The notes beneath the pieces are model-generated. The model made no database searches, had not been told where the DNA came from, and was given only the letters and a program-made list of their open reading frames with translations. This document shows, piece by piece, positions 4,629 to 28,358 of a DNA stretch of 45,590 nt. How positions within the stretch are numbered: the first letter of the stretch is position 1; the number at the start of each line of letters is the position of its first letter. Origin of the DNA: a virus; the IMG/VR virus record IMGVR_UViG_3300031578_000091, positions 1 through 45,590 of that record. One strand, written 5' to 3'. The position numbers and the translations under genes are program-made.

Positions 4629-4840
4629 GCCTCCTCCGGTGTATAAAGATCCTCTACTGACCTAGTGACTTCCTGGATGTGGTCTCGATACCACTGCAGA
4701 TTGAGTCTCCAGGTATCATCGAACGTCATCTCACCTAAGTCGAGAGCGGTCTGGTGCAGGAACTCGAACCCCGTGAGCTCCTCGAACTCCTTCATGAGCT
4801 GGGACTGTTCGGCTGTAGCTGACTTACTGTAGACGGTCAT
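4625..4840 (-). CDS. Hypothetical protein, 71 aa
   Basis: ATG at 4838-4840 in an ATGA overlap with the upstream stop. Helical acidic protein beginning MTVYSKSATAEQSQLMKEFE, with three conserved-looking Trp/Tyr in DTWRLNLQWYRDHI. No Cys cluster or membrane segment. Unknown. Confidence 0.65.
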   Translation of the reverse strand: MTVYSKSATAEQSQLMKEFEELTGFEFLHQTALDLGEMTFDDTWRLNLQWYRDHIQEVTRSVEDLYTPEEA

Positions 4841-5319
4841 CCTTCCTTCTCCTCTTCCTCTATCACTATAGGATCCGCTGCTGTGACGCGGACCCTGTTC
4901 TCTCCTATAACCTGTATTATGAGAGCAGCGTTCTCCGGTATGTGAGGGACATCCAGCTCGAGTTGACGTGTCTCGGAGCTGAGGATCACCATCCCTTCCG
5001 GGTGTGGTGTCACCTCTGCAAGGCGCTTCATCAGAGCCCAGAGGAGCACGGACTCAGGAGTCCACTTCCCCTCAGCTGTCATCAGCCTGGTGTCGTTGAC
5101 GAACTCCCTTGCTATGATCGGTATGGTCCTCTCGATGACTCCGAGGTAGATCCTTCGGAACTCTTCTCTCACAGCCTTACGTGCCAGAGCCCTCCCAGCG
5201 AACTCAGCAGCGAAGCGATAGATCTCACTGTCCCACCTACTGAGATCCGTGAACCCTTCTTCCTCGAGGAGCTCTCTACATATAGCTGCAATCTCATTGT
5301 GATTCATCGCTGTGGTCAT
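4837..5319 (-). CDS. Hypothetical protein, 160 aa
   Basis: ATG at 5317-5319 overlaps the stop of the upstream membrane-protein gene; a second in-frame ATG follows four codons later. The N-terminal 110 residues are helical (EIAAICRELLEEEGFTDLSR). The C-terminal 50 are beta-rich, with VILSSETRQLELDVPHIPEN and an acidic EEEEKEG end. Unknown function. Confidence 0.7.
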   Translation of the reverse strand: MTTAMNHNEIAAICRELLEEEGFTDLSRWDSEIYRFAAEFAGRALARKAVREEFRRIYLGVIERTIPIIAREFVNDTRLMTAEGKWTPESVLLWALMKRLAEVTPHPEGMVILSSETRQLELDVPHIPENAALIIQVIGENRVRVTAADPIVIEEEEKEG

Positions 5320-5453
5320 CCTGTCCCCTTCCTCTTGAGCGCTGAGTATACATCCATGAATAGGGGAACCAGGAACCCTCGAGTGAATGGTACCAGGACA
5401 GTGTAGAGGATCCAGAGCAGTAATATCTCTCGAGTGGTGAGATCGATGGTCAT
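5316..5453 (-). CDS. Small membrane protein, 45 aa
   Basis: Starts MTIDLTTREILLLWILYTVL. Residues 9-32 are hydrophobic, with one break at PFTRG and then another hydrophobic stretch, and a short basic C-terminus (ALKRKG). ATGA overlaps at both ends (with the 5450 stop and the 5317 start) support translation. This is the second small membrane protein in the operon. Confidence 0.6.
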   Translation of the reverse strand: MTIDLTTREILLLWILYTVLVPFTRGFLVPLFMDVYSALKRKGTG

Positions 5454-5851
5454 GACGTGCTCTCCAGATTGACAATGTCCAGTGCAGTGATCCTGAGCTT
5501 CACCACTCCCTTGTAGGCTGGATCCTCGATCCGCTCACCAATCTTGATCCCCTCTCCCTTGTCGTTCTCGATCTCCTCGAAGTGTGTCTCAAATCCTGCC
5601 TTGAAGAGAACGATATTGATTGCATTGTTGAGGCTCTCAGTGAGCGCCTTGAGCATAGCGTCCCGGATCACTCTCCCCAGAACAAGATTGACTAGGCCCT
5701 CCACTCCACCAGGCTCGGTCTCACTGAGCACTACCTCGGGGAACTGCTGCTCCGTGTCGAGGAGGATCTTCTCAACGTGCCTGGTGTACTTGTCAGGGAT
5801 CCCTGGGTGTCCCCGTACTAGCTCGAGGATCTGAGTGTAGTCTGCTCTCAT
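5450..5851 (-). CDS. Hypothetical protein, paralogue of the adjacent upstream gene, 133 aa
   Basis: Begins MRADYTQILELVRGHPGIPD and ends LRITALDIVNLESTS. The start, a central AINI-centred helix and the C-terminal RIT-A-x-I-N/V-N-x-E segment align with the 5848-6306 product, so the two are tandem duplicates that have diverged. ATG at 5849-5851 in an ATGA overlap with the stop of its paralogue. The C-terminal half looks like a beta-rich domain. No known family recognised. Confidence 0.75.
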   Translation of the reverse strand: MRADYTQILELVRGHPGIPDKYTRHVEKILLDTEQQFPEVVLSETEPGGVEGLVNLVLGRVIRDAMLKALTESLNNAINIVLFKAGFETHFEEIENDKGEGIKIGERIEDPAYKGVVKLRITALDIVNLESTS

Positions 5852-6306
5852 GACATGTTCTCCATGTTTATGATGTTCGCTGCAGTGATACGGATCCGCG
5901 TGAGCTCTGGGTGTTTTGGATCCTGGGTGTGTTGTCCCATAGAGAGGCCTGCACCGGAGTCATCCTCGAGCTCAATGAACTTGCACTCAGGACCCTCATA
6001 CTTCACCAGGATATTGATTGCCTTCTCGAGTTTCCCACCGAGCACTGCAAGCATTGCCCGTTCATATCTCTGACGCTCCTTCTCGAGACGTTCCCTGACA
6101 ATAGCTCGGATCACTTCACGCTGATCCCCAGGAAGCTCATCCAGAGGAGACGGCAACAAGACCTCTCTGACCTTCATCTCTGTAGGTATGTCCTCAGCAC
6201 GTCCCTCTGCTTCAAGTAGGATCCCTCTGAGATAGTCCTCTGCATTGTCAGTGAACCTAGGATGCTCCCCTGCCTGCTGTAGAATCCATCGGTAGTCATC
6301 TCTCAT
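5848..6306 (-). CDS. Hypothetical protein, paralogue of the adjacent downstream gene, 152 aa
   Basis: Start chosen at the ATG at 6304-6306 (MRDDYRWILQQAGEHP), because it aligns with the start of the paralogue and has GAGGAG upstream; an in-frame ATG ten codons earlier is less likely. Shared landmarks with the 5450-5851 product: MR-D-Y--IL N-terminus, a KLEKAINI helix, and RIRITAANIINMENMS at the C-terminus. Central helices are strongly charged. Function unknown. Confidence 0.75.
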   Translation of the reverse strand: MRDDYRWILQQAGEHPRFTDNAEDYLRGILLEAEGRAEDIPTEMKVREVLLPSPLDELPGDQREVIRAIVRERLEKERQRYERAMLAVLGGKLEKAINILVKYEGPECKFIELEDDSGAGLSMGQHTQDPKHPELTRIRITAANIINMENMS

Positions 6307-6448
6307 TAGAGTCACTCTCCTCAAGTACATGAACAATAAATTTTCCCAGCGCTGCTGCAGGTATCACAACCCGTCTGGTAGGAGATCCCTGCTCCTCGAT
6401 GTGGATCTTCACTGCACCGGAGAAGACACCCTGGTAGTCAAAGAGCAC
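6296..6448 (-). CDS. Small hypothetical protein, possibly the 3' part of a broken gene, 50 aa
   Basis: A GTG start at 6446-6448 gives MLFDYQGVFSGAVKIHIEEQ and on, overlapping the next ATG by 11 bases. The best ribosome site in the area (GGAGG) instead precedes an ATG at 6497-6499, whose frame meets a TAA at 6464-6466 and then continues directly into this sequence (GKDITVLFDYQG). The +1-shifted frame between them reads sensibly (GTVQLDGEDFIREG). This looks like a roughly 65-residue gene interrupted by two compensating single-base changes, or a sequence error. Beta-rich; function unknown. Confidence 0.45.
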   Translation of the reverse strand: MLFDYQGVFSGAVKIHIEEQGSPTRRVVIPAAALGKFIVHVLEESDSNER

Positions 6449-6500
6449 CGTGATGTCCTTCCCTTATGAAGTCTTCCCCGTCCAGTTGAACTGTCCCATT

Positions 6501-6746
6501 CTATCCTCCATCACTCTCCGACTCGTGCATGATCTCATACCCCTCACCGAGAACAACCAGCTCAACCATGTTAAGATCTACTGGTATGCAACAGAGCTTC
6601 CCTTCTTGAGCAGTGATCCTGATCCCATTGACATTCCCTTCCTGGATCCAGACAACACCACTCTGAGTCTCAATCCTCACAGCATGGACACTGCCCAGTG
6701 GTGACGCTTCCTCTCCATGCTTGTGTTTTCTCAGATGTATTTTCAC
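6501..6746 (-). CDS. Hypothetical beta-rich protein, 81 aa
   Basis: GTG start at 6744-6746 behind AGGGGGG, 12 bases after the upstream stop. Contains alternating hydrophobic residues (VVWIQEGNVNGIRITAQEGK) that suggest a small beta barrel, and an acidic end. The next small gene appears to carry a related beta segment. Unknown. Confidence 0.65.
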   Translation of the reverse strand: MKIHLRKHKHGEEASPLGSVHAVRIETQSGVVWIQEGNVNGIRITAQEGKLCCIPVDLNMVELVVLGEGYEIMHESESDGG

Positions 6747-6757
6747 CGTGGTCCCCC

Positions 6758-6898
6758 CTATAGTTCATCGAAGATCTCATCAAGATCATCATTGACCGCG
6801 TCCAGATCTACACCATCACCCGTGCCGTACTTCCCAGCCTCGACTGCAGCAGCGGTCTCATGCAATCTCTGAGCAAGTGAAGTCTGTTTGTCTGACAT
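6758..6898 (-). CDS. Small acidic protein, first gene of the leftward operon, 46 aa
   Basis: The ATG at 6896-6898 follows AGGAGGGACCAC and is the first start downstream of the strong promoter at 6941-6970. Begins MSDKQTSLAQRLHETAAAVE. The last 20 residues are Asp/Glu rich (GDGVDLDAVNDDLDEIFDEL), giving a very acidic protein. Acidic mini-proteins encoded first in phage early operons are often inhibitors of host enzymes or DNA mimics, but that is only a suggestion here. Confidence 0.65.
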   Translation of the reverse strand: MSDKQTSLAQRLHETAAAVEAGKYGTGDGVDLDAVNDDLDEIFDEL

Positions 6899-6940
6899 GT
6901 GGTCCCTCCTCAATCTGTTCAGAGTAAAATGTATTTTTCG

Positions 6941-6970
6941 ATTATATAATATTGAGCGCTTGACTGTCAA
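6941..6970 (-). promoter_or_regulatory. Strong sigma70 promoter of the leftward operon
   Basis: On the minus strand TTGACA (6965-6970) and TATAAT (6941-6946) are both perfect consensus, with an 18-base spacer. A 40-base leader leads to the AGGAGG of the 46-aa gene. It drives the more than 20-gene leftward operon. A shared ATAATCG end of the -10 region also occurs in the clamp promoter at 16192. Confidence 0.85.
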
Positions 6971-7024
6971 CACCTAAAATGAGCCCGAGCGCTGATCTTC
7001 CTAACTATCGGCATTGTTCACACA

Positions 7025-7253
7025 CGTCCACTTATGCCACTTATGAGTAATATTGACATTGACAACAACTTAGCTCACTCAAATAGACACTTTTCAACGT
7101 CCAATTATGGGAAATTATGGAGACAACCTTGCAACCCACTGTCCCCTATGCACTTATACATAAGTGGACGCATGTCCATAAGTGGACCATAAGTGGACCC
7201 TATACATATAGACATAAACACTTATATAATAATAATATATACATAAGTGGACG
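7025..7253. repeat. Iteron cluster with AT-rich element (candidate origin or operator)
   Basis: CATAAGTGGAC[G/C] occurs on the plus strand at 7159-7170, 7177-7188, 7188-7199 and 7242-7253. Inverted copies (CGTCCACTTATG) lie at 7025-7036, a one-mismatch copy at 7098-7109 and a shorter one at 7037-7045. Between the third and fourth forward copies is an AT-only-like run (7201-7246). The cluster sits in the 650-base gap between divergent operons. Clustered iterons beside an AT-rich stretch are typical of replication origins bound by an initiator, but a regulator binding array would look the same. No initiator gene is visible in the window. Confidence 0.6.
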
Positions 7254-7515
7254 TTGAGTGAGTGTGTTGCACTGCTGAGTTGAGACACCCGAGTTCAGAC
7301 AGGGGTGAGAAGTGAGCAGATGAGGCCTGAGGGCAGGCCTGAGACCTCTAGACAAGCACCTCCCTCCCAAACTTGCACCTCCCCTCCTGGATCCTGCACT
7401 CCCTCGCTCGTTCCGTGCACCTAGTCACCTACTGGATCCGGTGCTCGAGATGCGCTCCTGTGGATCCGTTCGATCAAGATCCCTGTCCCCGGTTTTCGAT
7501 TATGTCAAATTGTGC
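7254..7515. other. Non-coding spacer before the rightward block
   Basis: No credible gene on either strand. It contains several short CT-rich tracts (CACCTCCCTCCC, CACCTCCCCTCC) and GGATCC/CTCGAG words common in this genome. A TTCGATTATGTCAAAT segment at about 7496 resembles the ATAATCGAA promoter end seen at 6939 and 16190, but without a good -35 partner. Confidence 0.4.
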
Positions 7516-7545
7516 TTGACATGGATCCGAGCACTCAGGTAGTAT
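7516..7545 (+). promoter_or_regulatory. Rightward sigma70-like promoter
   Basis: TTGACA at 7516-7521 and TAGTAT at 7540-7545, spacer 18 bases. The -35 is perfect and the -10 matches 4 of 6. It is placed to transcribe the 7630-11363 block, with a start near 7552 and a structured leader of about 75 bases. Confidence 0.6.
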
Positions 7546-7567
7546 TGAAGGGAACATCTGAAGAGGG

Positions 7568-7626
7568 CTGCTCGGTGGTCCCATTGTTAAGAGCACCGGG
7601 CAGTCCACCATTGAACTGAGGGGACC
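7568..7626 (+). promoter_or_regulatory. Possible H-type pseudoknot over a ribosome binding site
   Basis: Stem 1 pairs CTGCTCGGTG (7568-7577) with CACCGGGCAG (7594-7603), with one G-U pair. GTCCC in its loop (7578-7582) can pair with GGGAC (7621-7625), just before the ATG at 7630. The second pairing covers the GAGGGGA ribosome site (7618-7624), so folding would block translation of the first gene. This arrangement resembles T4 gene 32-type autoregulation. It is seen by complementarity only. Confidence 0.45.
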
Positions 7627-7629
7627 TTC

Positions 7630-7884
7630 ATGAACAGAACGAAGTCAAAGGTGCTTAGGAGAGCAGCCTCGATCCTTGCGGACAAGAAGAGCAAGCTCAC
7701 CTGGAACGGTATGGGATCTCGAGTCTACCCGAAGAGCAGTGCACGGGCAATCTACCAGCGTCTCAAGATTGAGGCTCGAGATCTCAAGAGATACCGGGAG
7801 CTCCAGGCTCTCGTTGAACGTCACAAGAGAACCCAGGCCGTAGATGCAGCAAGATCCCTACCGATAGAGATGAGCTCACGGTAG
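7630..7884 (+). CDS. Small basic hypothetical protein, 84 aa
   Basis: First gene of the rightward block, starting MNRTKSKVLRRAASILADKK. Very basic (Lys/Arg throughout) and mostly helical, with no Cys or membrane segment, so a nucleic-acid-binding role is plausible. Its ribosome site lies inside the predicted pseudoknot, suggesting translational control, possibly by its own product. Followed by a hairpin at 7898-7933. Family not recognised. Confidence 0.65.
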   Translation: MNRTKSKVLRRAASILADKKSKLTWNGMGSRVYPKSSARAIYQRLKIEARDLKRYRELQALVERHKRTQAVDAARSLPIEMSSR

Positions 7885-7897
7885 ACGTGCCTGGTCC

Positions 7898-7933
7898 GGG
7901 AGCTGGGTGTAGTCCCCTCAGCACTCAGCTCCC
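7898..7933 (+). other. Intergenic hairpin
   Basis: GGGAGCTG (7898-7905) pairs with CAGCTCCC (7926-7933). No T-run follows, so it could be a partial terminator or an mRNA-processing site separating the basic protein from the exported-protein genes. Confidence 0.35.
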
Positions 7934-7954
7934 ACAACTACAAGGAGACTCACT

Positions 7955-8512
7955 ATGAAGACACTCATCCTGCTCACCCTAGTCCTCTGCTTCGTGTCCT
8001 GTGGATGCAAGGACGGCAAGGTCGAGATCCTGAACAAACCACTCTACAACGGAGAGGGCTGGAGCATCTGGACCGCTCAACCTGGTGACGTGATTGTCTA
8101 CTACTATTACACCAGGCCTCTGTCAGCAATGCCTGAGGCAGCGCGTGCCCAGCTCCCTGACAACTTCGGTGAAGTGTTCAGACAGATGGAACGAGATGGA
8201 GCTTTCAAGTACTTCGGCTTCGTCATCACATCGACCGGTGGGACCTCGTTCTGGTCTGATCGGAGCTCGATCCTGATGACTTACATAGAGCGAGGGGACA
8301 CCCTGCAGATCGAGAGTGATGAACTCTTCATCATTCAGAAGTGTGATCTGCAACCGGTGTGCTCGGATGAGAGGATGCTCCAGATCCCTACAGGGCAGGA
8401 TGACATCTTCGACACACCGAGAGGGCAGCAGGTCCTGTTCGCAAAGTTTCCCTTGACTTCACAGCCGGACGCGGTCCTATACTGTGAAGCAATCAATACT
8501 CTCTCACACTAA
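7955..8512 (+). CDS. Predicted lipoprotein, 185 aa
   Basis: N-terminus MKTLILLTLVLCFVSCGCKD is a lipoprotein signal peptide: Lys, a hydrophobic core, then FVSC with the lipidated Cys at residue 16. The mature part (about 170 residues) is acidic to neutral and beta-rich, with aromatic clusters (EGWSIWTAQPGDVIVYYYYT) and four further Cys that could form disulfides. ATG at 7955 with AAGGAGA upstream. It is the first of three adjacent exported proteins. Phage lipoproteins are often superinfection-exclusion or lysogenic-conversion factors, which is an inference from location and topology rather than homology. Confidence 0.75.
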   Translation: MKTLILLTLVLCFVSCGCKDGKVEILNKPLYNGEGWSIWTAQPGDVIVYYYYTRPLSAMPEAARAQLPDNFGEVFRQMERDGAFKYFGFVITSTGGTSFWSDRSSILMTYIERGDTLQIESDELFIIQKCDLQPVCSDERMLQIPTGQDDIFDTPRGQQVLFAKFPLTSQPDAVLYCEAINTLSH

Positions 8513-11788: not shown

Positions 11789-11950
11789 TTAACGGTAGTT
11801 GCTGAAGCTCATCTCTCGAGCGTGACGGACTCTGTCATGTAGACTCTCAACGGTCTCGATCTTCCCAGGTCTCAGATCTGCAACCGGCATCTCGATCTCC
11901 CAGAGATCCTTGACCGTCAGGTTGTCTTTTATTTTCGTTTCGTTCGTCAT
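11789..11950 (-). CDS. Small hypothetical protein under sigma54 control, 53 aa
   Basis: Too short for usual gene calling, but it has AAGGAG six to eight bases before its ATG (11948-11950) and starts right after a sigma54 promoter leader. Sequence begins MTNETKIKDNLTVKDLWEIE and ends in a basic helix (DRVRHAREMSFSNYR). Unknown function. Confidence 0.65.
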   Translation of the reverse strand: MTNETKIKDNLTVKDLWEIEMPVADLRPGKIETVESLHDRVRHAREMSFSNYR

Positions 11951-11988
11951 CTCGATCTCCTTCTTGTTTGCGTTCTACCTATAGTCAT

Positions 11989-12004
11989 AGCAAGCGCCGT
12001 GCCA
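11989..12004 (-). promoter_or_regulatory. Sigma54 (-24/-12) promoter, site a
   Basis: Minus strand CTGGCACGGCGCTTGCTA: TGGCAC at 11999-12004 and TTGCT at 11989-11993, with GG and GC exactly 10 bases apart. A G lies 11-12 bases downstream of GC as a start point. Leader contains TAGAACGCAAACA before AAGGAG. Drives 11950 to 11439. Confidence 0.8.
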
Positions 12005-12083
12005 GTCAGCGGGTGTTGATATATAACAAGTTACAGGAGCGGGGATCCCCGGTACCGGTCGAGATCCCGTGCAGGTTGCACTC

Positions 12084-12151
12084 TGGTAGTTTTGTTTTGC
12101 AATGGGAAAGTAAACTACCAGGGGAGCCCGTTCGAGATCTCGAGCTCCCCT
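12084..12151 (-). terminator. Two tandem hairpins after the Zn/OB gene
   Basis: Read leftward after the stop at 12164: AGGGGAGC/GCTCCCCT (12120-12127 with 12144-12151), then TGGTAGTTT/AAACTACCA (12084-12092 with 12112-12120), the two sharing a base at 12120. They separate this gene from the next sigma54 unit. The rest of the gap holds the upstream region of site a. Confidence 0.55.
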
Positions 12152-12163
12152 CCTGTGGATCTC

Positions 12164-13006
12164 TTAGAGGACCTCACCCTTGACCGGTCTCGAGAAGAAG
12201 CTGAACCCCTGGTCATCAGCTCTTTTGACCGTACCGGTGAAGCGGACAGTGCAGCCCTTGAGATCCTGCAGGCTGAAGTAGGGCGCGTCCGTGATGCTCT
12301 TCGGGACGGTCCCCCAGGTCTTCCAGGATCCGGCCTCAGTATCGACCTTGACCAGCATCTTGTAGGTCATCCCGTAGGGGCCCTCATCGACCCTGGCGCT
12401 GAGCACGGTGCCGATGATCTCGAAGCGTCCCTCAGGGGCATCGATCCAGGTCTCAGCGGCCTGCTCATCGGCTCTCTTCTTGAGGGTCCTGAGGAGCTCG
12501 ATCTGCTTCATGCTGATGGTCCCGAACTGGATGAACCTGGACCGGATGTCGCGGGTGACTTCGTTGTCAACCTTGAAGGCCTCCCTGAGATCCGGGTAGT
12601 TGCTCATGATGTTCCTCATCGATCTCCAGGCCTGGATCCTGCGAGCTCTCCTGACGGCCTTCGTGATGTGAGCCTGGTAGACACTGTCATAGTGACTGTA
12701 GTCAGTGACCAGGTTGTACTTCGCCGCGCACTCGTGACCGATGGTGGTGTACTTCCCGCTCGGGATGTGGTACCAGACCTCACCGTGCACGTAGTGAGCG
12801 CCGCACACGTCACACTGGAAGATCGAGTTGTGAATGTTCACGAGCTCCCCGGCCTTCTTCATCTCGATGACCACGTCCACATACATCGGGGGGATAGGCC
12901 AACCGTCCACAGTCGAGGCCCCGCTGAAGCTCATGTGGTACTCATAATCCTCGGGGTTGATTGCTCCGACTCGGTGGGGATCTGTTCTCTTGCTGGTTCC
13001 GTTCAT
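12164..13006 (-). CDS. Zinc-finger protein with possible C-terminal OB fold, 280 aa
   Basis: Start fixed at the ATG at 13004-13006: AGGAGG lies six to nine bases upstream, while the longer in-frame form to 13048 would begin inside the sigma54 promoter. Residues 65-95 show CDVCGAHYVHGEVWYH ... IGHEC, a treble-clef/zinc-finger pattern found in phage and plasmid proteins. The middle is helical and basic. Residues about 195-275 are beta-rich with alternating hydrophobics (GTVLSARVDEGPYGMTYKML ... CTVRFTGTVKRADDQG), consistent with an OB fold. A single-stranded-DNA or replication role is plausible, given clamp and topoisomerase-like neighbours. Confidence 0.75.
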   Translation of the reverse strand: MNGTSKRTDPHRVGAINPEDYEYHMSFSGASTVDGWPIPPMYVDVVIEMKKAGELVNIHNSIFQCDVCGAHYVHGEVWYHIPSGKYTTIGHECAAKYNLVTDYSHYDSVYQAHITKAVRRARRIQAWRSMRNIMSNYPDLREAFKVDNEVTRDIRSRFIQFGTISMKQIELLRTLKKRADEQAAETWIDAPEGRFEIIGTVLSARVDEGPYGMTYKMLVKVDTEAGSWKTWGTVPKSITDAPYFSLQDLKGCTVRFTGTVKRADDQGFSFFSRPVKGEVL

Positions 13007-13043
13007 CTCTTGACCTCCTGTTTGCGTTCCTACCCTATACCAT

Positions 13044-13059
13044 AGCAAGGCCTGTGCCA
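13044..13059 (-). promoter_or_regulatory. Sigma54 promoter, site b
   Basis: Minus strand CTGGCACAGGCCTTGCTA: TGGCAC (13054-13059) and TTGCT (13044-13048), GG-N10-GC. Start point at the G's 11-12 bases after GC; leader TAGGAACGCAAACAGGAGG. Drives the 280-aa gene. Confidence 0.8.
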
Positions 13060-13072
13060 GTCCCTCCCGGCT

Positions 13073-13152
13073 CGCCTCGAGGAGAAAATCGGGCTGTAAT
13101 AAGCTGTTATTACATAGGGTTATACGGGGGGTCTTTTCGCCTCGAGGAGAAC
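13073..13152. repeat. Direct repeat and perfect palindrome upstream of sigma54 site b
   Basis: CGCCTCGAGGAGAA occurs at 13073-13086 and 13139-13152. Between them a perfect inverted repeat, TGTAATAA-GCTG-TTATTACA (13095-13114), begins 37 bases beyond the -24 GG of site b, a fitting place for an activator or repressor. The rest of the gap up to 13264 has GC-rich palindromes (CGGGGGCCCCGG) and repeated GTGCA words but no gene. Confidence 0.5.
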
Positions 13153-13264
13153 GGGGGCCCCGGATCCTGCAGCTGCAGAGTGCAAAGTGCAGAGATTTAC
13201 TGCAAAAAGAGAGCCCGGATCCTGTGGACCCGAGCTCCCCGAACGCGGCACCCTGGTTGAGATC

Positions 13265-13744
13265 TCAGAGTGCACAGGAGGTCCTGACCTGCCGTCCCTC
13301 GACCTCGAACACCACGGTCAGACGGACGGACTCGGTGGGGTTGCCGAAGATCTCGATCATGTGGTCGATCTTCTTGACCTTCTTGCCGTAGGTCTCGGAG
13401 GCCTTCTTCAGGAGAGCCTTGATCTCCCTGGTGATCTCCTGAGCCGAGTAGCTGCTGCATCTCTTCGAGCTCGGAGCCTTGACCTCCTCGAGGATAGTCA
13501 TCAGAACCTGATAGGCCTCCTCTATGGCCTCATCACTGCTGTCCCTGACGTGTGACCAGTCCCACTCGATCCCGAGCTCCTGGAGCTGCTCAGCGCTCAT
13601 CCTACCGAACCCGTCACACCTGGTGACTACGTCCATGTGACCCTGATCGGTGAGCTCCTCGTGATGCTCTCCCCAGGCACAGACATACTGGTGAAGGACC
13701 TTGACCATCTCGGCGTGTATCTTATCTCTGGTGAAGTTTTCCAT
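13265..13744 (-). CDS. Hypothetical protein under sigma54 control, 159 aa
   Basis: ATG at 13742-13744 with AGGAGG in a conserved leader from site c. Begins MENFTRDKIHAEMVKVLHQY; helical for about 110 residues with WDWSH and a Ser-rich linker. The last 50 residues (KKVKKIDHMIEIFGNPTESV and on) are beta-strand-like. Four Cys are scattered. No family recognised; single-gene unit between sigma54 promoters. Confidence 0.7.
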   Translation of the reverse strand: MENFTRDKIHAEMVKVLHQYVCAWGEHHEELTDQGHMDVVTRCDGFGRMSAEQLQELGIEWDWSHVRDSSDEAIEEAYQVLMTILEEVKAPSSKRCSSYSAQEITREIKALLKKASETYGKKVKKIDHMIEIFGNPTESVRLTVVFEVEGRQVRTSCAL

Positions 13745-13784
13745 CTCAAGCCTCCTGTTGTTTGCGTTCCTAACTATAGGCTAT

Positions 13785-13800
13785 AGCAGGGACCGTGCCA
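13785..13800 (-). promoter_or_regulatory. Sigma54 promoter, site c
   Basis: Minus strand TTGGCACGGTCCCTGCTA: TGGCAC (13795-13800) and CTGCT (13785-13789), GG-N10-GC. G at +1 in CTATAG; leader TTAGGAACGCAAACAACAGG. An alternative reading as a sigma70 promoter (TTGGCA, 17, TATAGT) is possible at this site. Confidence 0.75.
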
Positions 13801-13824
13801 ATTTCAGGAGATCCAGACATGGAA

Positions 13825-13874
13825 AGACCCTCCCCGTAAGTTATTGAGTGCCAGCTCTCTACGGTGGAGGGTCT
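13825..13874 (-). terminator. Strong hairpin terminator
   Basis: AGACCCTCCCCGTA (13825-13838) pairs with TACGGTGGAGGGTCT (13860-13874), a 14-bp stem with one bulge. Leftward it is followed by TTTCC. It closes the clamp / zinc ribbon / topoisomerase-like unit before site c. Confidence 0.65.
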
Positions 13875-13950
13875 CTCAGGGCCTCGGAGGGATCCGCTCA
13901 GGAGGTGTCAAGCGGACGTGCAGAACGCAATCAACAGGAGGATCTTTGCA

Positions 13951-14817
13951 CTATCCCTCGAGCCCGGCAACGGTCTTCTTCAGGAGCCGCTTGTCTCGCT
14001 CCTCCTTCTGGATCACTCCGCTGTAGAGCGTGAGATCCAGGACGCTCTCGATCTTCTCGGAGATGAGCTGCTCGAGTACTGCAGGAGGGAGAGCATCGAC
14101 CTCCCAGGACTCGTGACCATACCGGGCAATGAAGTCAGCTGCTCGAGGGTCCGTGATCTTCGCGGGGTTCGGGGGAGGCTGGTGCTCCTGGACCTGCTCC
14201 ATTGTGAGCGCTATCTTCTCGACCTGGACATCAGCATTGAACTCAGCGAGCCGGTCCGAGATGTCCCTGACCATGTCCTCACCGGAGGGGTCGAGATCCC
14301 CCAGGTAGAAGAGCGTGCAGTCCTGGTCCCTGTGGTCGAGGAAGCGCTTCGCCGCGTCATACATTGCCGAGGCGCTCGAGTACCCTCTGTTGACCATCAG
14401 GACCACGTGGTACTTCCGGGCCAGGGGACGGAGCACGGAGGCCAGAGCATCCTTCTCGACCCAGAGCTCGGCATAGTACTCCTGACCGTCCCAGCGCGGG
14501 AGTCTGTAGGATCTCAGCGCGGCCTCCACCAGGTCCTTGAGGTTGTTGAACTCAGGAGGGAAGTCCGGCTGTCGAACACGGTCCTCGATTGCATCCCAGT
14601 CCAGGATCCCGGCGAGCCTGGCGCGGGTGACTGCCCGGCTGAGGTTCTTGTAGGATCTCTCCTCGTTCGTGATGATGTTCCTCGAGACCAGCTGGTAGTA
14701 GAGCTGCCGGAGGGTGAGCCTGTAAGCGCTGAGCTCCTCGAGGATCTGAGCACACTGGGCAACGAGGGCCCTGGTGCTGTCGTTCGGGTTCCAGTCTCTG
14801 AAGTATTCGCGGGCCAT
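13951..14817 (-). CDS. Spo11/Topo VI-A-like protein (Topo mini-A type), 288 aa
   Basis: Resembles stand-alone A-subunit-like proteins of type IIB topoisomerases. A winged-helix-like segment contains LTLRQLYYQLVSRNIIT, where Y41 matches the catalytic Tyr of the R-x-x-[FY]-Y motif. A Toprim domain follows: E121 in ELWVEKDALA, and D174/D176 in YLGDLDPSGED, the usual metal ligands. The length of 288 aa is shorter than Topo VI A (about 350-390), as for mini-A proteins. No B (ATPase) subunit is visible. ATG at 14815-14817 with AAGGAGA. Cotranscribed with a zinc ribbon and the sliding clamp, suggesting a role in replication, recombination or DNA breakage. A simple Toprim nuclease is the alternative. 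Confidence 0.75.
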   Translation of the reverse strand: MAREYFRDWNPNDSTRALVAQCAQILEELSAYRLTLRQLYYQLVSRNIITNEERSYKNLSRAVTRARLAGILDWDAIEDRVRQPDFPPEFNNLKDLVEAALRSYRLPRWDGQEYYAELWVEKDALASVLRPLARKYHVVLMVNRGYSSASAMYDAAKRFLDHRDQDCTLFYLGDLDPSGEDMVRDISDRLAEFNADVQVEKIALTMEQVQEHQPPPNPAKITDPRAADFIARYGHESWEVDALPPAVLEQLISEKIESVLDLTLYSGVIQKEERDKRLLKKTVAGLEG

Positions 14818-14826
14818 GATGTCTCC

Positions 14827-15036
14827 TTACCAGTAGTTGCTCAGGTATGCCAGGCACTTCTTGCAGTAGGACCTGGACTTGCTCTTCCTCTTCGTTCCAC
14901 ACCTCACACAGCGCTCGTTCCTCTTGTGCCTGCCGTAGCGTCTCTTCGATCTCGCTGCTCCGACTTCCCTGCAGTGCTTGCACTGTTTGAAGCGCTCCGA
15001 GCGGTTCCTCTTCCCACAGGTGGTGCACTTCCTCAT
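14827..15036 (-). CDS. Double zinc-ribbon basic protein, 69 aa
   Basis: Starts MRKCTTCGKRNRSERFKQCK and has four Cys pairs: CTTC, CKHC, CVRC and CKKC, i.e. two tandem ribbons joined by a very basic linker (SKRRYGRHKRNER). ATG at 15034-15036, one base after the clamp stop, with GGAGG inside the clamp gene's end. It probably binds nucleic acid or RNA polymerase; position suggests the clamp/topoisomerase unit. Confidence 0.7.
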   Translation of the reverse strand: MRKCTTCGKRNRSERFKQCKHCREVGAARSKRRYGRHKRNERCVRCGTKRKSKSRSYCKKCLAYLSNYW

Positions 15037-15037
15037 G

Positions 15038-16162
15038 TCATCCCTCCAGTCTCAGCGGCATGACAATCACCATGTGCTTGATCTCCTCGAGCTCCTCCTG
15101 GATAAGTGCGGCAGTGTCCGGTCTCTCCAGGTTGAGCGTGAGCTCCTCGCTCTCGAGGGTGCTCAGGGCCTGCTGCAGGTAGAGGGCATTGTATCCGACT
15201 GTGACCGTGCTGTTCGCTGTACACTCGAGATCTTCGGAGGCCTTGCCGAGCTCCTCATTCTCAGCGCTCAGAGAGATCTTCTTCGGCTGGACCTCGAACT
15301 TGATCTGATTAGTCGGCTTGTTCGAGAACACCGAGAGTCTCTTGACGGACGCGAGGAGATCCTCACGCGAGAACGTGCAGGTCTTGTCTGTGTGCTGAGG
15401 GATGACGTTCTCGAACTTCGGAAAAGGTCCCTCGATGAGCCTGGAGCGGAGTTGCATGACTCCCTTGCCTTCATTGTCATAGGTTGAGAACTGCATCCAA
15501 TCCGGGCCGATGTAAGCCCAGAGTGTGCCGTCCTTCTCCGCGTGGTCCTGGAGGATCTTCAGGCTCTTTGACGGGATGATGATGTCTTGGGGTTTCCTGG
15601 TGTCATGGATCTTGACCGCTCCAGTCTCGATCTTGCAGAGCCGGTGCCCGTCTGTGGAGACCACAGTGAGCCTGCCTTTGCTGAGACGGAACAGGACCCC
15701 GGTGAGCGCGGGTCTGGTGAGGTCTGTGGAGACGGCATACAGGGACTTCTTCAGGATCTCGGTCATGAGGAAGGGATCGATCTCGAGGCCGAACTCGGAG
15801 TTGACCTTCGGAATCTGAGGGAAGTCCTCGAGCGGCCTGGTCTCCATCTCGAGGGTTGTCTTCCCGCACTTCATGAAGACCTTGTTCCCCTCGAGGGTGA
15901 TGGTGACGGAGCTGCCAGGGAGGGCTTTCAGCGCCTTGTCCATCTTCCTGACTGGCAAGATCCCCTTGCCTGCCTTCTCGATCTTCCCGTGGATCCTGAC
16001 GGTGACCCACTGGTCGAGATCGGTGGAGGAGATCCCGGTCCCGAGCTTGTCCGTCTCGATCAGAGCGTACTGCAGGATCGGGAGGGTTGTCTTCCCTGGT
16101 GTCACTGAGCAGACCTTCTTCAGGGACAGGAGCAGTTCCTTCTTGCTGACTGTGATCTTCAT
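15038..16162 (-). CDS. dnaN: DNA polymerase III beta sliding clamp, 374 aa
   Basis: Clear DnaN. N-terminal MKITVSKKELLLSLKKVCSV, the KTTLPILQYALIE segment, and the domain-3 end with PLRLEG (family: MPMR/LRL) are diagnostic. The three repeated clamp domains are present at normal length (about 366-378 aa in bacteria). It forms a ring dimer tethering DNA polymerase to DNA. A phage-coded clamp without a visible loader suggests use of the host clamp loader, or genes outside the window. ATG at 16160-16162 with AGGAGG, under its own sigma70 promoter. Confidence 0.95.
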   Translation of the reverse strand: MKITVSKKELLLSLKKVCSVTPGKTTLPILQYALIETDKLGTGISSTDLDQWVTVRIHGKIEKAGKGILPVRKMDKALKALPGSSVTITLEGNKVFMKCGKTTLEMETRPLEDFPQIPKVNSEFGLEIDPFLMTEILKKSLYAVSTDLTRPALTGVLFRLSKGRLTVVSTDGHRLCKIETGAVKIHDTRKPQDIIIPSKSLKILQDHAEKDGTLWAYIGPDWMQFSTYDNEGKGVMQLRSRLIEGPFPKFENVIPQHTDKTCTFSREDLLASVKRLSVFSNKPTNQIKFEVQPKKISLSAENEELGKASEDLECTANSTVTVGYNALYLQQALSTLESEELTLNLERPDTAALIQEELEEIKHMVIVMPLRLEG

Positions 16163-16191
16163 TGCGGCCTCCTGGTTGAGTGTGTCCTTCG

Positions 16192-16220
16192 ATTATATCA
16201 AATCGAGTGTTAGAGTTCAA
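16192..16220 (-). promoter_or_regulatory. Sigma70 promoter of the clamp gene
   Basis: Minus strand TTGAAC (16215-16220), 17-base spacer, TATAAT (16192-16197). Immediately follows the terminator of the upstream gene. The -10 and following bases (TATAATCGAA) match the early leftward promoter at 6941. Confidence 0.8.
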
Positions 16221-16261
16221 GAGGGAAGTGCCGAGGACCCGAAGATCCCCGGCACTCCCTC
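16221..16261 (-). terminator. Hairpin terminator abutting the clamp promoter
   Basis: GAGGGAAGTGCCG (16221-16233) pairs with CGGCACTCCCTC (16250-16261), a 12-bp stem with one bulged A. Leftward the stem runs straight into TTGAAC, the -35 of the clamp promoter. Closes the 16274-16738 gene. Confidence 0.65.
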
Positions 16262-16273
16262 CGGTCGGCTGGG

Positions 16274-16738
16274 TTATACCCTTATAGGCATGATGCATCC
16301 TACGTACCTCTTCCCCTGGTATAGTGCAACTGGGGCCCATTGACTCGTTGTTTTGAATGTTAGGCCTTTTCCAAAAAAGAACGCAGTATACTGAAGATAC
16401 TTTCTCTGTACGGGTATCTGTAACACCCCAGTGGAATCAACTAAAAGGCGCACAATATAGTCCCCGTGCCTTATTGCTCTCTTTTCCACTGTGAGAGAGA
16501 CACAGCTCTCATCCCTGAGGTACCTAGACAAAGCACGTCGAAGGGGAATAGGGAAGGGGGTGTCTATGCCCTCTTCCCAGCACCCGTAACCCCTGATAGG
16601 GAGGTGAAATTTTTGTGGTATCTGATCCAAAGGGAGGATGAACAGGCACTCCCCGTTGCTGACCACTTCTCTGCTCTCGCTTCTCCTATGTACCCAGAGC
16701 TTTGCACTCCTAAAGAAAGTACTAAATCTATTTGCCAT
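16274..16738 (-). CDS. Hypothetical protein under sigma54 control, 154 aa
   Basis: ATG at 16736-16738 with AGGAGG upstream and a sigma54 site behind it; the longer in-frame form starts upstream of the promoter and is rejected. Begins MANRFSTFFRSAKLWVHRRS. Basic, beta-rich, with a single Cys pair. Codon choice differs from neighbours (few GAGCTC/CGAG words, more mixed third positions), hinting at separate acquisition. Flanked by its own promoter and terminator, so it behaves as an independent cassette. Unknown function. Confidence 0.65.
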   Translation of the reverse strand: MANRFSTFFRSAKLWVHRRSESREVVSNGECLFILPLDQIPQKFHLPIRGYGCWEEGIDTPFPIPLRRALSRYLRDESCVSLTVEKRAIRHGDYIVRLLVDSTGVLQIPVQRKYLQYTAFFFGKGLTFKTTSQWAPVALYQGKRYVGCIMPIRV

Positions 16739-16774
16739 CCTGGGACCTCCTGTTGAAGTTCTACCCTGGAGAGC

Positions 16775-16790
16775 AGCAACTCCTGTGCCA
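16775..16790 (-). promoter_or_regulatory. Sigma54 promoter, site d
   Basis: Minus strand ATGGCACAGGAGTTGCTG: TGGCAC (16785-16790) and TTGCT (16775-16779), GG-N10-GC. It lacks the TATAG seen at other sites but keeps G's at +1 and the GGGTAGAAC leader start, then AGGAGG. Confidence 0.75.
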
Positions 16791-16825
16791 TATTCCCTGA
16801 CGTGTCCAGTCACTACCTATCACTT

Positions 16826-16837
16826 CCTGTGGTTCCT
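16826..16837. promoter_or_regulatory. Shared upstream element at sigma54 site d
   Basis: CCTGTGGTTCCT lies 37 bases beyond the -24 GG. The identical 12-mer is at 18811-18822, also exactly 37 bases beyond the -24 GG of site e. In both, further TTCC copies surround it. Candidate activator-binding site. The gap 16791-16882 holds nothing else. Confidence 0.5.
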
Positions 16838-16882
16838 TATCGTTCCTCGATCCATATCTCACTGTGTTGCAAAGTCCGAGAA

Positions 16883-17143
16883 CTAGAGTGCAATCTGCTC
16901 CTGCATCTCTTCGAGGATCCCGGTTGCAATAGCGAGAGCAGCCTTGTCAGTGAACTGCTCAGGGCTGCAGGTGTTGAGCTGGTTGATCGATCCCTGGAGC
17001 GCTAGAGCTGCAAGAGCTTTGCCTTCCATCATGACCTTGTTCTTGATCTGCCGTCCGATGACCTTTGATCTGTGGTCCAGGTTCCGGTGCTGGATCCTGA
17101 TGTCCTCGAGCGTGCTCTCAATCAGTTCCTGTCTTCTACTCAT
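16883..17143 (-). CDS. Hypothetical helical protein, 86 aa
   Basis: ATG at 17141-17143 in an ATGA overlap with the upstream stop, AAGGAG upstream. Starts MSRRQELIESTLEDIRIQHR; helical, basic in the first half, with KALAALALQGSINQLNTCSP. Last gene of the site-g unit. Unknown. Confidence 0.65.
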   Translation of the reverse strand: MSRRQELIESTLEDIRIQHRNLDHRSKVIGRQIKNKVMMEGKALAALALQGSINQLNTCSPEQFTDKAALAIATGILEEMQEQIAL

Positions 17144-17289
17144 ATCTCTACTCCTTCGACTGGGACAACGGTCCCTCCGATCAGATCCGCGTCCTCTGTT
17201 GCTTCCTTCTTCTTCGTGTAGATGAGTGGTCCTAGACCAGTCCGCCCACCAGGGAGATCTACTTCAACAACCCAGGAGGGTCTCCTCAC
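17140..17289 (-). CDS. Small hypothetical protein, 49 aa
   Basis: GTG start at 17287-17289 chosen because it makes a GTGA overlap with the upstream stop; an in-frame ATG at 17394 would overlap the upstream gene by 109 bases. Begins VRRPSWVVEVDLPGGRTGLG; beta-rich with a KKKE patch. The stop overlaps the next ATG (ATGA). Unknown. Confidence 0.5.
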   Translation of the reverse strand: MRRPSWVVEVDLPGGRTGLGPLIYTKKKEATEDADLIGGTVVPVEGVEI

Positions 17290-17516
17290 TTCGAGAACTG
17301 TGAAGTGAGTCTCTTGATTACAGAGGAGTGCAACTCTCGGAGTGACCTGCTCCTCTGCTCTGCTCTCTTGATATAATCCTCGTAGAGAATCCATCTCACT
17401 GACGCTCCTTCCTGCTCGAGTCTCTCGTTCTCAGCAGCTGCACACTCTTCGGACATGTAGTCCACGTTGCAGCCTGCCTGGATGTCTTCGTCATATAGAA
17501 CGTAGTGTCTGTTCAT
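17286..17516 (-). CDS. Hypothetical protein under sigma54 control, 76 aa
   Basis: ATG at 17514-17516 after AAGGAGAGACCG. Begins MNRHYVLYDEDIQAGCNVDY, two or three Cys, charged helix in the middle (AAAENERLEQEGAS), basic C-terminus. First gene after sigma54 site g, coupled to the next two genes. Confidence 0.65.
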   Translation of the reverse strand: MNRHYVLYDEDIQAGCNVDYMSEECAAAENERLEQEGASVRWILYEDYIKRAEQRSRSLRELHSSVIKRLTSQFSK

Positions 17517-17552
17517 CGGTCTCTCCTTTTTTCAAGTCCACTCTCGAGGACC

Positions 17553-17568
17553 TGCAAGGCGCGTGCCA
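17553..17568 (-). promoter_or_regulatory. Sigma54 promoter, site g
   Basis: Minus strand CTGGCACGCGCCTTGCAG: TGGCAC (17563-17568) and TTGCA (17553-17557), GG-N10-GC, the best match to the TGGCACG-N4-TTGCA consensus in the window. It lies directly after the stop of the 17571 gene. Its leader lacks the AACGCAAACA block. Confidence 0.75.
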
Positions 17569-17570
17569 GG

Positions 17571-18029
17571 TCAGGCTCTGCTCTGATCGAGCATGATCCT
17601 GAACCCGTCCTGCACGGTGTACTTCGAGATCATCCCGAGTTGCCTGTTCATGTCCTCCCAGGACTCATAGTGTCTCTTCTGAGCGAACAGGTCGAGCGCT
17701 CCCTGGGCTGTCCGAGCGCTCTCCGTGCCCAGCGTCATCCCGGAGCGTCCCATGATTTGAAACATCCTGGAGGGCTGCTTCTCCTCGAGCTCTTCCTTCT
17801 GGATCTCCTCGAGCTTCTTCTTCCCGAGCATCACTGCTTCAGTGTTCTGCAGACAGTTGAAAAACCAGTCCACAGGCTCTCGGTGTGCACGGAAGCATTG
17901 CACTTTGAATCCTGCCGGGTTGCCGTACCAGGAGCGAGCGGTGACTATGAACTTCACCTTCTCCCCTCCGATCTGCATGGTCCGCTGGATCCGTGGTCTC
18001 TTGACGTTCATGATCTTCCCCTTCCTCAT
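17571..18029 (-). CDS. Hypothetical protein, 152 aa
   Basis: ATG at 18027-18029 in an ATGA overlap with the upstream stop; an alternative ATG six codons later has a better AGGAAGGGG site. Begins MRKGKIMNVKRPRIQRTMQI. The N-terminal 60 residues are basic and beta-like; the middle (KKKLEEIQKEELEEK) is a charged helix. The C-terminus MISKYTVQDGFRIMLDQSRA resembles alpha/beta packing. Unknown function. Confidence 0.65.
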   Translation of the reverse strand: MRKGKIMNVKRPRIQRTMQIGGEKVKFIVTARSWYGNPAGFKVQCFRAHREPVDWFFNCLQNTEAVMLGKKKLEEIQKEELEEKQPSRMFQIMGRSGMTLGTESARTAQGALDLFAQKRHYESWEDMNRQLGMISKYTVQDGFRIMLDQSRA

Positions 18030-18268
18030 TCAGCTCCGATCAGGAACCTGATGACTGCCTTCCCATTCAGGTCCCTGTCGTTCTCGGTGTATACTGGGAA
18101 CCCGTCCTCGAGTGCTCCATAGTATGCAGCAGGGCTGTCCTTGATCCCTCTGTTCCTGAGCTGTCTCAGAACGAGTCCCTTCCCTCTCGAGCGCCGGAGC
18201 GCTGTCACGAACTTCCTGACATCTCCGTTCGCTCTTGCCTTCTTGATCCTCTGCTTCTTGTCTCTCAT
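18026..18268 (-). CDS. Small very basic protein, 80 aa
   Basis: ATG at 18266-18268 after TAGGAGATCAC. Starts MRDKKQRIKKARANGDVRKF. The N-terminal 45 residues are Lys/Arg-rich and helical; the rest is acidic/neutral. Likely nucleic-acid-binding by charge. It is in the unit read from sigma54 site e. Confidence 0.65.
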   Translation of the reverse strand: MRDKKQRIKKARANGDVRKFVTALRRSRGKGLVLRQLRNRGIKDSPAAYYGALEDGFPVYTENDRDLNGKAVIRFLIGAE

Positions 18269-18276
18269 GTGATCTC

Positions 18277-18501
18277 CTACATCACTACAACGGTGTTCTG
18301 ACCGTCAGGGTGATGGATCTCGAGACCGGAGGCTCCGTACACTCTGACAAGGAACTTCGCTCTCGCAACCGCTCCCTTGACAGTCCCGGTGACCTCTTCC
18401 TGGTGGACCGGCATCTCCGAGATCTCGATGTCCGTGTAGATCTCGATTGTGTGAGTGCCTTCTCCGATCCAGATCTCAACCTTCAACTGTTCCTTCTTCA
18501 T
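18277..18501 (-). CDS. Hypothetical beta-rich protein, 74 aa
   Basis: ATG at 18499-18501 with AGGAGGAGAAG upstream. Begins MKKEQLKVEIWIGEGTHTIE; alternating hydrophobic residues throughout suggest a small beta sandwich, ending VVVM. Unknown. Confidence 0.65.
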   Translation of the reverse strand: MKKEQLKVEIWIGEGTHTIEIYTDIEISEMPVHQEEVTGTVKGAVARAKFLVRVYGASGLEIHHPDGQNTVVVM

Positions 18502-18540
18502 CTCTTCTCCTCCTGCTGATGTTCTCTCTGTTTCCTGTGA

Positions 18541-18708
18541 CTAGCGCTTCCTGATGACTCTCTTTGTGAACCTGAACTGAAGACCACAGTGAGGGCACTT
18601 CACCCAGTCACCCATCTCCGCGTCCACTTCGATGATCGAGCTGCAGTCCGTGCAGTAAGTCATCTTCTTCGTCTCTTCCTTTTTTTCTTTTTTCGTTATT
18701 GTGAACAT
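18541..18708 (-). CDS. Zinc-ribbon protein, first gene after sigma54 site e, 55 aa
   Basis: Begins MFTITKKEKKEETKKMTYCT. CTDC and CPHCG pairs 16-18 residues apart form a classical zinc ribbon, followed by a basic tail (FRFTKRVIRKR). The ATG at 18706-18708 has AGGAGG upstream. Small ribbons of this kind resemble transcription-factor or RNA-polymerase-binding modules; its position suggests a regulatory role. Confidence 0.75.
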   Translation of the reverse strand: MFTITKKEKKEETKKMTYCTDCSSIIEVDAEMGDWVKCPHCGLQFRFTKRVIRKR

Positions 18709-18759
18709 CTCTTTTCCTCCTGTTCGGTGCCTTCTTGTTGCGTTCTACCTATATACATC

Positions 18760-18775
18760 AGCAAGCACCGTGCCA
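18760..18775 (-). promoter_or_regulatory. Sigma54 promoter, site e
   Basis: Minus strand TTGGCACGGTGCTTGCTG: TGGCAC (18770-18775) and TTGCT (18760-18764), GG-N10-GC; G of TATATAG at +1; leader GTAGAACGCAACAAGAAGGC. Drives the unit 18708 to 17571. Confidence 0.8.
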
Positions 18776-18810
18776 AATGTCCCCGAGGATCCCAGGGCTC
18801 CAGAGCGTTC

Positions 18811-18822
18811 CCTGTGGTTCCT
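18811..18822. promoter_or_regulatory. Shared upstream element at sigma54 site e
   Basis: CCTGTGGTTCCT, identical to the copy at 16826-16837 and at the same 37-base distance from the -24 GG. It is followed by CGTTGTTCCC, also similar to the other copy. Confidence 0.5.
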
Positions 18823-18866
18823 CGTTGTTCCCTCCTTCAGATCCTCGAGTAGTGCAGATATGGGAA

Positions 18867-18892
18867 GGGCAGGTGCAATCTGCAGCCTGCCC
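18867..18892 (-). terminator. Hairpin terminator
   Basis: GGGCAGG (18867-18873) and CCTGCCC (18886-18892) with a 12-base loop, downstream of the 18920 gene when read leftward, followed by TTCCC. The loop itself can extend pairing (TGCA...TGCA). Confidence 0.5.
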
Positions 18893-18919
18893 AGGGTGAA
18901 GGAGGTCTTCTTCGAGGAT

Positions 18920-19216
18920 CTATTCTATCTTCATCCAGGCTCCTGAGAAGCTCGAGGGTTCACCATCACCGACAAACTCGATCCTCACTCTGACGGCCTT
19001 CGGACCGTTGAATCCCCAGGGCCTCTGGAAGGTCCGTCCCGTAACTGTAATATTGACAGCAGCTGTGGTGTTGTGTCTGCCGGTGACGAAGAAGTCTGCC
19101 TTGTCCCACCAGTCACAGTCACCGAGTCTCGATCCGTATCCGTCCCATCCGTCAGGCCAGATGTAGGATCCTACTTCAGCCTTCGTTCCTTCTTCTATCG
19201 CGTTCCACTTTGTCAT
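18920..19216 (-). CDS. Hypothetical beta-sandwich-like protein, 98 aa
   Basis: ATG at 19214-19216 chosen because AGGAGG precedes it and it lies right after the sigma54 leader; the longer frame to 19381 runs through the promoter. Begins MTKWNAIEEGTKAEVGSYIW. Trp/Tyr-rich, with NITVTGRTFQRPWGFNGPKA and RVRIEFVGDGEP: probable small beta fold. Single-gene unit between site f and a terminator. Confidence 0.7.
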   Translation of the reverse strand: MTKWNAIEEGTKAEVGSYIWPDGWDGYGSRLGDCDWWDKADFFVTGRHNTTAAVNITVTGRTFQRPWGFNGPKAVRVRIEFVGDGEPSSFSGAWMKIE

Positions 19217-19253
19217 CTCGGTCCTCCTTGTTTGCGTTCTAACTATAGGACGT

Positions 19254-19269
19254 AGCAGGGACCGTGCCA
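19254..19269 (-). promoter_or_regulatory. Sigma54 promoter, site f
   Basis: Minus strand CTGGCACGGTCCCTGCTA: TGGCAC (19264-19269) and CTGCT (19254-19258), GG-N10-GC; G at the end of CTATAG as start; leader TTAGAACGCAAACAAGGAGG. Confidence 0.78.
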
Positions 19270-19568
19270 GAAAAACACCAGGAGGAAGAGTGTTGTGTGG
19301 CAATGACTTACCTGCTACGTCCGAGGGGAGCCCAAAGAGATCCGGGTGTCCCGTGCTGCATATTGCAGACTTTCTCTTCACTTTGCATTGTCTACCAGGT
19401 GCAACGTCCAGATCCCTCTAGGATCCGATGGACCAGGTCTCTCAGTAGTCTAGCTATCATGACCTACTCCTTGTTGAATATCTCGACAGGGATCTTTGCA
19501 GGATCTGTTCCAGTCCGCTCTCGATTATATAATATCAAATAAGTCAACGAGTTATTATTAATTAAGTA
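19270..19568. other. Divergent non-coding region between leftward and late blocks
   Basis: No solid gene. A leftward 22-codon frame (19392-19460, starting MIARLLRDLVHRILEGSGRC) has AAGGAG upstream and a TATAATCG element near 19525 behind it, so a leader peptide is possible but weak. The right end (19525-19568) is very AT-rich and may act as an UP element for the late promoter. Confidence 0.35.
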
Positions 19569-28289: not shown

Positions 28290-28358
28290 GAAAACCGACC
28301 GGAGCAGAGAAGCTGCACGAGCAGACTCTCTCACCGAGTCCGTTATAGATTAATTAGC

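Follow-up and report, generated by a model that had tools for sequence, protein, structure and literature searches.

Seven predicted sigma-54 promoters with candidate enhancer dyads in the leftward gene block of a phage

The DNA considered here is a window of 45,590 nucleotides, the IMG/VR virus record IMGVR_UViG_3300031578_000091, in which seven short elements are set between the genes of a leftward block (11.4–19.3 kb). These elements are very likely sigma-54 (−24/−12) promoters. Judging from the sequence, we put at roughly 0.82 the probability of the whole explanation, namely that they depend on the RpoN of the host and are opened by a host activator at a dyad further upstream; that the activator acts through this dyad is itself likely. 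Sigma-54 promoters fire only when an ATP-driven activator responds to its specific signal, for instance nitrogen, envelope stress or motility.

Sequence and spacing of the promoter elements

The pattern TGGCAC-N5-YTGCW has seven matches in the window and no others. All are intergenic, on the minus strand and within 11,989–19,269, exactly where the original prediction had placed them, and each has a ribosome site just downstream, as had also been claimed. Dinucleotide shuffles, a comparison proposed at the time, gave an expectation of 0.12 sites, and none of 100 shuffles reached seven. In a relaxed scan, which required GG-N10-GC and scored the consensus, the same seven ranked first with 11–12 of 12 positions; the next site scored 10/12. 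Within TGGCACR-N4-YTGCW the GG and GC of the window sites are exactly ten bases apart, and the core agrees with the published RpoN consensus TGGCACnnTTnTTGC (E. coli RpoN/NtrC; PMC8743547).

The spacing can be examined free of assumption by taking TGGCA[CT] followed by YTGCW at every gap from 0 to 15. Over the whole genome a gap of 5 accounts for seven of eight pairs; the remaining pair has a gap of 8, and no other spacing is enriched. The same gap dominates in a divergent relative, G057 (6/6), and in two unrelated phages, G013 (16/17) and G014 (12/13).

The predicted sigma-54 promoter cores are as follows.

19254..19269, minus strand: core TGGCACGGTCCCTGCT, leader AGAACGCAAACAAGGAGG, predicted +1 G near 19243; precedes open reading frame (ORF) 18920–19216
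18760..18775, minus strand: core TGGCACGGTGCTTGCT; precedes ORFs 18541–18708 (Zn ribbon), 18277–18501, 18026–18268 and 17571–18029
17553..17568, minus strand: core TGGCACGCGCCTTGCA, 12/12 consensus, lacking leader, TATAG and upstream dyad; precedes ORF 17286–17516
16775..16790, minus strand: core TGGCACAGGAGTTGCT, partial leader, lacking TATAG; precedes ORF 16274–16738
13785..13800, minus strand: core TGGCACGGTCCCTGCT; precedes ORF 13265–13744
13044..13059, minus strand: core TGGCACAGGCCTTGCT; precedes ORF 12164–13006
11989..12004, minus strand: core TGGCACGGCGCTTGCT, predicted +1 G near 11978; precedes a 53-amino-acid ORF starting at 11950

A common leader, [AG]GAACGCAA(A)CAAGGAGG, is complete at five sites (11989, 13044, 13785, 18760 and 19254). 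It had been described as shared by six; the copy at 16775 is only partial (AGAACTTCAACAGGAGG). At the leader sites a G stands at about the predicted +1, which would fit a start some 12 nucleotides after the −12 GC. A search with the leader only, independent of the core, returned six copies in the window and five in G057, each 28–30 nucleotides after a −24/−12 element.

A TATAG stretch occurs at five of the seven sites; its distance from the GC varies while that between GG and GC is constant. We dropped TATAG as a part of the motif: the scan that suggested it had required TATAG, and it is not common to the six sites of G057.

Conservation in a divergent relative

G057 (30.7 kb) was found by pattern scan, and its structural proteins are 31–68% identical, mostly above 40%, to those of the window phage. 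It has six sigma-54 sites, all directed away from the structural block. One of them, at 27313, precedes a gene of 102 amino acids orthologous (49% identity, E = 2e-23) to window gene 18920–19216, itself behind site 19254. Kept between the two phages are the −24/−12 core and the leader AGAACG-CAACAAAGGAG. The second gene behind a sigma-54 promoter in G057 (27678–28301, L255) is tyrosine integrase-like (phrog_216).

Dyads upstream of the promoters

The activator (enhancer) site of a sigma-54 promoter typically lies about 80–200 bp upstream. At five of the seven window sites a dyad TGCA-N16/17-TGCA is found 98, 103, 103, 119 or 146 bp upstream of the −24 element, its half-sites about two helical turns apart, centre to centre.

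12076..12102, minus strand: putative enhancer dyad TTGCA-N17-TGCAA, 98 bp upstream of the −24 TGG
16867..16893, minus strand: putative enhancer dyad TTGCA-N17-TGCAA, 103 bp upstream of −24
18852..18878, minus strand: putative enhancer dyad TTGCA-N17-TGCAC, 103 bp upstream of −24
13180..13205, minus strand: putative enhancer dyad TTGCA-N16-TGCAC, 146 bp upstream of −24
19363..19388, minus strand: putative enhancer dyad ATGCA-N16-TGCAA, 119 bp upstream of −24
13925..13951, minus strand: degenerate dyad GTGCA-N17-TGCGT, 151 bp upstream of site 13785; weak and left out of the statistics

Against the five observed, the average per set of seven was 0.02 dyad sites for shuffled sequence and 0.18 for segments drawn at random from the genome; none of 5000 sets reached five in either comparison. 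G057 provides a more independent test than the window: dyads lie 102, 80 and 80 bp upstream of three of its six sites, a count reached in 8 of 5000 random sets. When the 13 upstream regions of both phages are taken together, a gap of 17 peaks, with six regions, whereas in none of 1000 random sets did any gap occur in more than four; TGCA is about 2.4–2.6 times denser upstream of the promoters than in the two genomes. A related locus, L006, has a dyad at −102 which was read after the rule had been fixed and is likewise a more independent check.

The dyad differs from the NtrC box, which is TGCACCA-N3-TGGTGCA (PMC8743547). A sequence close to that box, TTGCACCCATGTGGTGC, precedes a sigma-54-like site at about 2455–2600 of another record (L130, IMGVR 3300048121_000720).

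Two further observations concern upstream regions. At 7377–7425 of the window three TGCA cores follow one another at steps of about 21–22 bp upstream of the other leftward block, with no recognizable sigma-54 site nearby. An element GGAACCACAGG(G)AA lies about 35–60 bp upstream of sigma-54 sites in the window (about 16810–16850 and 18800–18830), in L006 (upstream of 4657) and in G057 (upstream of 14819); common to related phages, it is possibly the site of a second factor.

Genome context and the source of sigma-54

IMG/VR record 3300031673_000043 (G001; 60,642 bp) is about 99.9% identical to the window phage. Its ends share a 143-bp direct repeat and the genome therefore looks complete. G001 and G057 were searched for the sigma-54 domain (PF04552) and for that of enhancer-binding AAA+ proteins (PF00158), and neither turned up; the remaining records with arrays that were searched gave no convincing match, whereas control genomes did match. 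A PF00158 match in G009 was weak and below the cut-off, and an AAA+ match in G464 (L165), considered as a bacterial enhancer-binding protein (bEBP), was rejected as it reads as a primase/helicase-type protein.

Since the phage carries no sigma-54 or bEBP domain, both the sigma factor and the activator are presumably borrowed from the host. Two sources of the activator had been envisaged. A PF00158 activator of the phage's own, elsewhere in the genome, was sought in the 60,642 bp of G001 and is not there; supply from outside the phage agrees with this absence, with the fixed spacing, with the conservation and with the dyads. Read directly from the DNA are the elements, their spacing and their conservation in the divergent relative, as well as the dyads and the lack of both domains in the phage.

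The rightward block of the genome encodes terminase, portal, capsid and tail proteins. PolA (with an intein), primase/helicase, Sak4, an exonuclease and a helicase are located in the other 15 kb (L093), where PolA (4737–8081) contains, at about residues 520–790, an interrupting intein-like stretch that matches HNH endonucleases. The leftward block has one clear DNA-metabolism operon, which encodes a sliding clamp and a topoisomerase-like protein and offers an internal contrast to the sigma-54 set.

16192..16220, minus strand: separate sigma-70-like promoter TTGAAC-N17-TATAAT, with TG before the second hexamer, serving the DnaN/TOPRIM operon
15038..16162, minus strand: DnaN-like sliding clamp (phrog_947, E = 9e-66), behind the sigma-70-like promoter
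13951..14817, minus strand: topoisomerase-like (TOPRIM-type) protein of the clamp operon (phrog_6247 'DNA topoisomerase', E = 5e-86)

The genes directly behind the seven sites are small, and most have no assigned function. The claim that sigma-54 promoters drive the DNA-metabolism block is thus too broad, because the clamp operon has its own promoter and the main replication genes are elsewhere; the promoters precede units interspersed among DNA-metabolism genes. Protein searches with DnaN and with the product of 12164–13009 gave a near-identical record as the sole match. In the intergenic region at 7040–7300, (GT)CCACTTATG is repeated several times, with copies facing either way; this is perhaps an origin or operator region.

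There are no tRNA genes in the window. The nearest cultured relatives infect diverse Proteobacteria. A pattern scan of genome contigs returned 19 scattered single bacterial sites, several of them deltaproteobacterial or Bdellovibrio-like, and a scan of 395 genomes of one phylum for dyad plus promoter returned three scattered matches. In the bacterial contigs (L102–L120) the sigma-54-like sites are followed by TATAG[AG]TAG in the start region; G or A follows TGGCAC in 16 of 19 and TTGCT occurs in 18 of 19, neither of which the pattern demanded, suggesting a real promoter subtype.

Proposed mechanism

We infer the parts of host RpoN, activator, start site, timing and signal as follows. Each site would be read by the host RpoN–RNA polymerase as a −24/−12 promoter, at which a closed complex would wait. 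A host enhancer-binding AAA+ activator at the TGCA-N16/17-TGCA dyad, about 100–150 bp upstream, would loop over, hydrolyse ATP and open the complex. Transcripts would begin at a G about 12 nucleotides after the −12 GC and carry the shared short AGAACG-CAACAAGGAGG leader. In this way a single host signal could turn on seven units of mostly small accessory genes at once, apart from the sigma-70-like promoters of the phage.

Alternative explanations

Several observations weigh against this reading. The dyad was first spotted by visual inspection of the window itself, which makes the statistics obtained there post hoc; it is not known to fit any activator site; and a few pairs resembling it stand elsewhere than at sigma-54 sites (window positions 42477, 34226 and 7399–7420). 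Site 17553 has neither dyad nor leader. The array is not a general trait of the terminase-related clade: among 49 viral records, mostly terminase relatives together with the phages YuA and S0112, only G001 and G004 have two or more strict sites and almost all lack an array. Lastly, sites 13785 and 19254 fit the sigma-70 consensus TTGACA-N17-TATAAT at 10/12 and 9/12 positions with a 17-nucleotide spacer. The elements might then be sigma-70-type promoters, with a TTGGCA-like −35, a spacing of 15–18 nucleotides and the TATAG present at five sites as −10, the TGC between them being incidental or an extended element. We regard this as improbable. Only those two sites pass a consensus scan, and a −10 at 16–18 nucleotides is not found in every member; TATAG is absent at 16775 and 17553 and not common to G057, whereas TGGCAC-N5-YTGC is invariant, and it is the GG–GC distance that is fixed while that from GC to TATAG varies. 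The clear sigma-70-like promoters of this phage look otherwise (TTGAC/TTGAAC...TATAATCG), in G013 and G014 a TATAG −10 would put the transcription start inside the gene, and the upstream dyads would be left unexplained.

Phages commonly repeat promoters of their own before early operons, and the five-copy repeat of YuA, a different sequence, is annotated with a phage cofactor. A phage-modified or phage-encoded polymerase, or a phage factor that reads a sigma-54-like sequence, nevertheless has an even slighter claim on the data: no single-subunit RNA polymerase was recognized, the two largest proteins being PolA with its intein and the tape measure, and the sequence is the bacterial RpoN consensus, present also in unrelated phages and in bacterial genomes. 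It is least probable of all that the elements are not promoters but operators or start-associated sites, that is, repressor-binding sites or translation elements. Some phages do have spread, co-oriented repeats next to gene starts, as in the start-associated sequences of mycobacteriophages. The present element, however, is asymmetric, has the −24/−12 consensus and spacing, always faces the gene 28–30 nucleotides before the leader, and retains its promoter core at the leaderless site 17553.

A variant within the sigma-54 explanation deserves more weight, although we still consider it unlikely: the activator would work from solution or from another site, and the dyad would belong to another regulator. 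No clear dyad accompanies site 17553 or half of the sites in G057, and some bEBPs are known to act without specific DNA sites. Against this stands the enrichment of the dyad at enhancer distance in two divergent phages. We retain host sigma-54 promoters opened through the dyad as the preferred explanation.

Comparison with known systems

Pseudomonas phage YuA is described as strictly dependent on host sigma-54 (PMC5053324, citing Ceyssens et al., 2008). That source regards the use of sigma-54 by phages as rare, naming YuA as its one example, and YuA is the only documented sigma-54-dependent phage in the portion of the literature searched. Its record AM749441 (Yuavirus, Mesyanzhinovviridae) annotates three high-activity −24/−12 promoters in the structural/lysis region. 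These are of weak consensus (in the annotated forward segments no GG/GC score exceeds 8/12), whereas the window phage has seven near-perfect sites; all seven lie in the opposite, leftward accessory block, none in the structural/lysis region, and they come with a common leader and dyads upstream. The strict pattern found no site in YuA or in Shewanella phage S0112. YuA and the window phage probably belong to the same broad siphophage assemblage; the capsid protein of the latter is 57% identical to those of KPP23/RSP and 53% to those of RDJL phages, and YuA is not among the listed best matches. The 28-bp repeats of YuA resemble the window array in that one promoter copy stands before each of several operons, keeping them co-expressed, but the annotation of the five copies is that of a sigma-70 promoter which requires a phage cofactor, while the window sites read as sigma-54. 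What is new here in comparison with YuA is that the promoters are more numerous, better conserved, differently placed and accompanied by a candidate enhancer; the evidence suggests that the kind is broader than recorded.

Bacterial RpoN regulons share the consensus TGGCACnnTTnTTGC and have activator sites upstream, although the window dyad is not an NtrC box. The phage has seven sites in 60 kb, a density much above that of a bacterial genome; one Desulfococcaceae genome has 42 (and nine control sites) in 6.6 Mb.

Arrays in other phages

A scan of IMG/VR for the sigma-54 core with a ribosome site gave at least 25 further sites in 697 kb (79 new loci among the matches listed), against two for the reversed pattern. 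New arrays of three to five sites among the matches listed are those of L148, L181, L211, L201, L174 and L161. G013 (L094, L095) has 16 sigma-54-like promoters in about 8 kb and G014 (L096, L097) 12 in about 4 kb. In these two, many small genes are each preceded by one promoter, with the ATG at about the predicted +1. At 20 of the 28 sites the start codon begins 12–14 nucleotides beyond the −12 C, so that sigma-54 would produce messages with little or no leader. The promoters often have G+C-rich, hairpin-like sequences immediately upstream. A 40-kb phage contig of 60% G+C (G058; L129/L256) has five sigma-54-like sites (TGGCACGCGTCTTGC[CT] and variants) in 2.7 kb. A search for the short DNA element in cultured phages gave nothing convincing. 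The earlier view that sets of this size are unusual has to be qualified: arrays are uncommon within the clade but recur in unrelated uncultured phages, in larger sets of up to 16.

It seems rather probable that several unrelated phage lineages carry arrays of host sigma-54 promoters (seven here, 16 in G013, 12 in G014, six in G057 and five in G058) and no activator of their own in the examined sequence, the expression of their gene blocks being controlled by an enhancer-binding protein of the host and the signal it answers, with promoters fused to start codons and leaderless messages in one lineage. If true, this way of coupling phage and host regulation would be widespread and for the most part undescribed. 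The defined elements (core, dyad and leader) make the sigma-54 coupling directly testable with reporters. For the window phage, the physiological state of the host would decide the expression of seven units under sigma-54 promoters with a common dyad.

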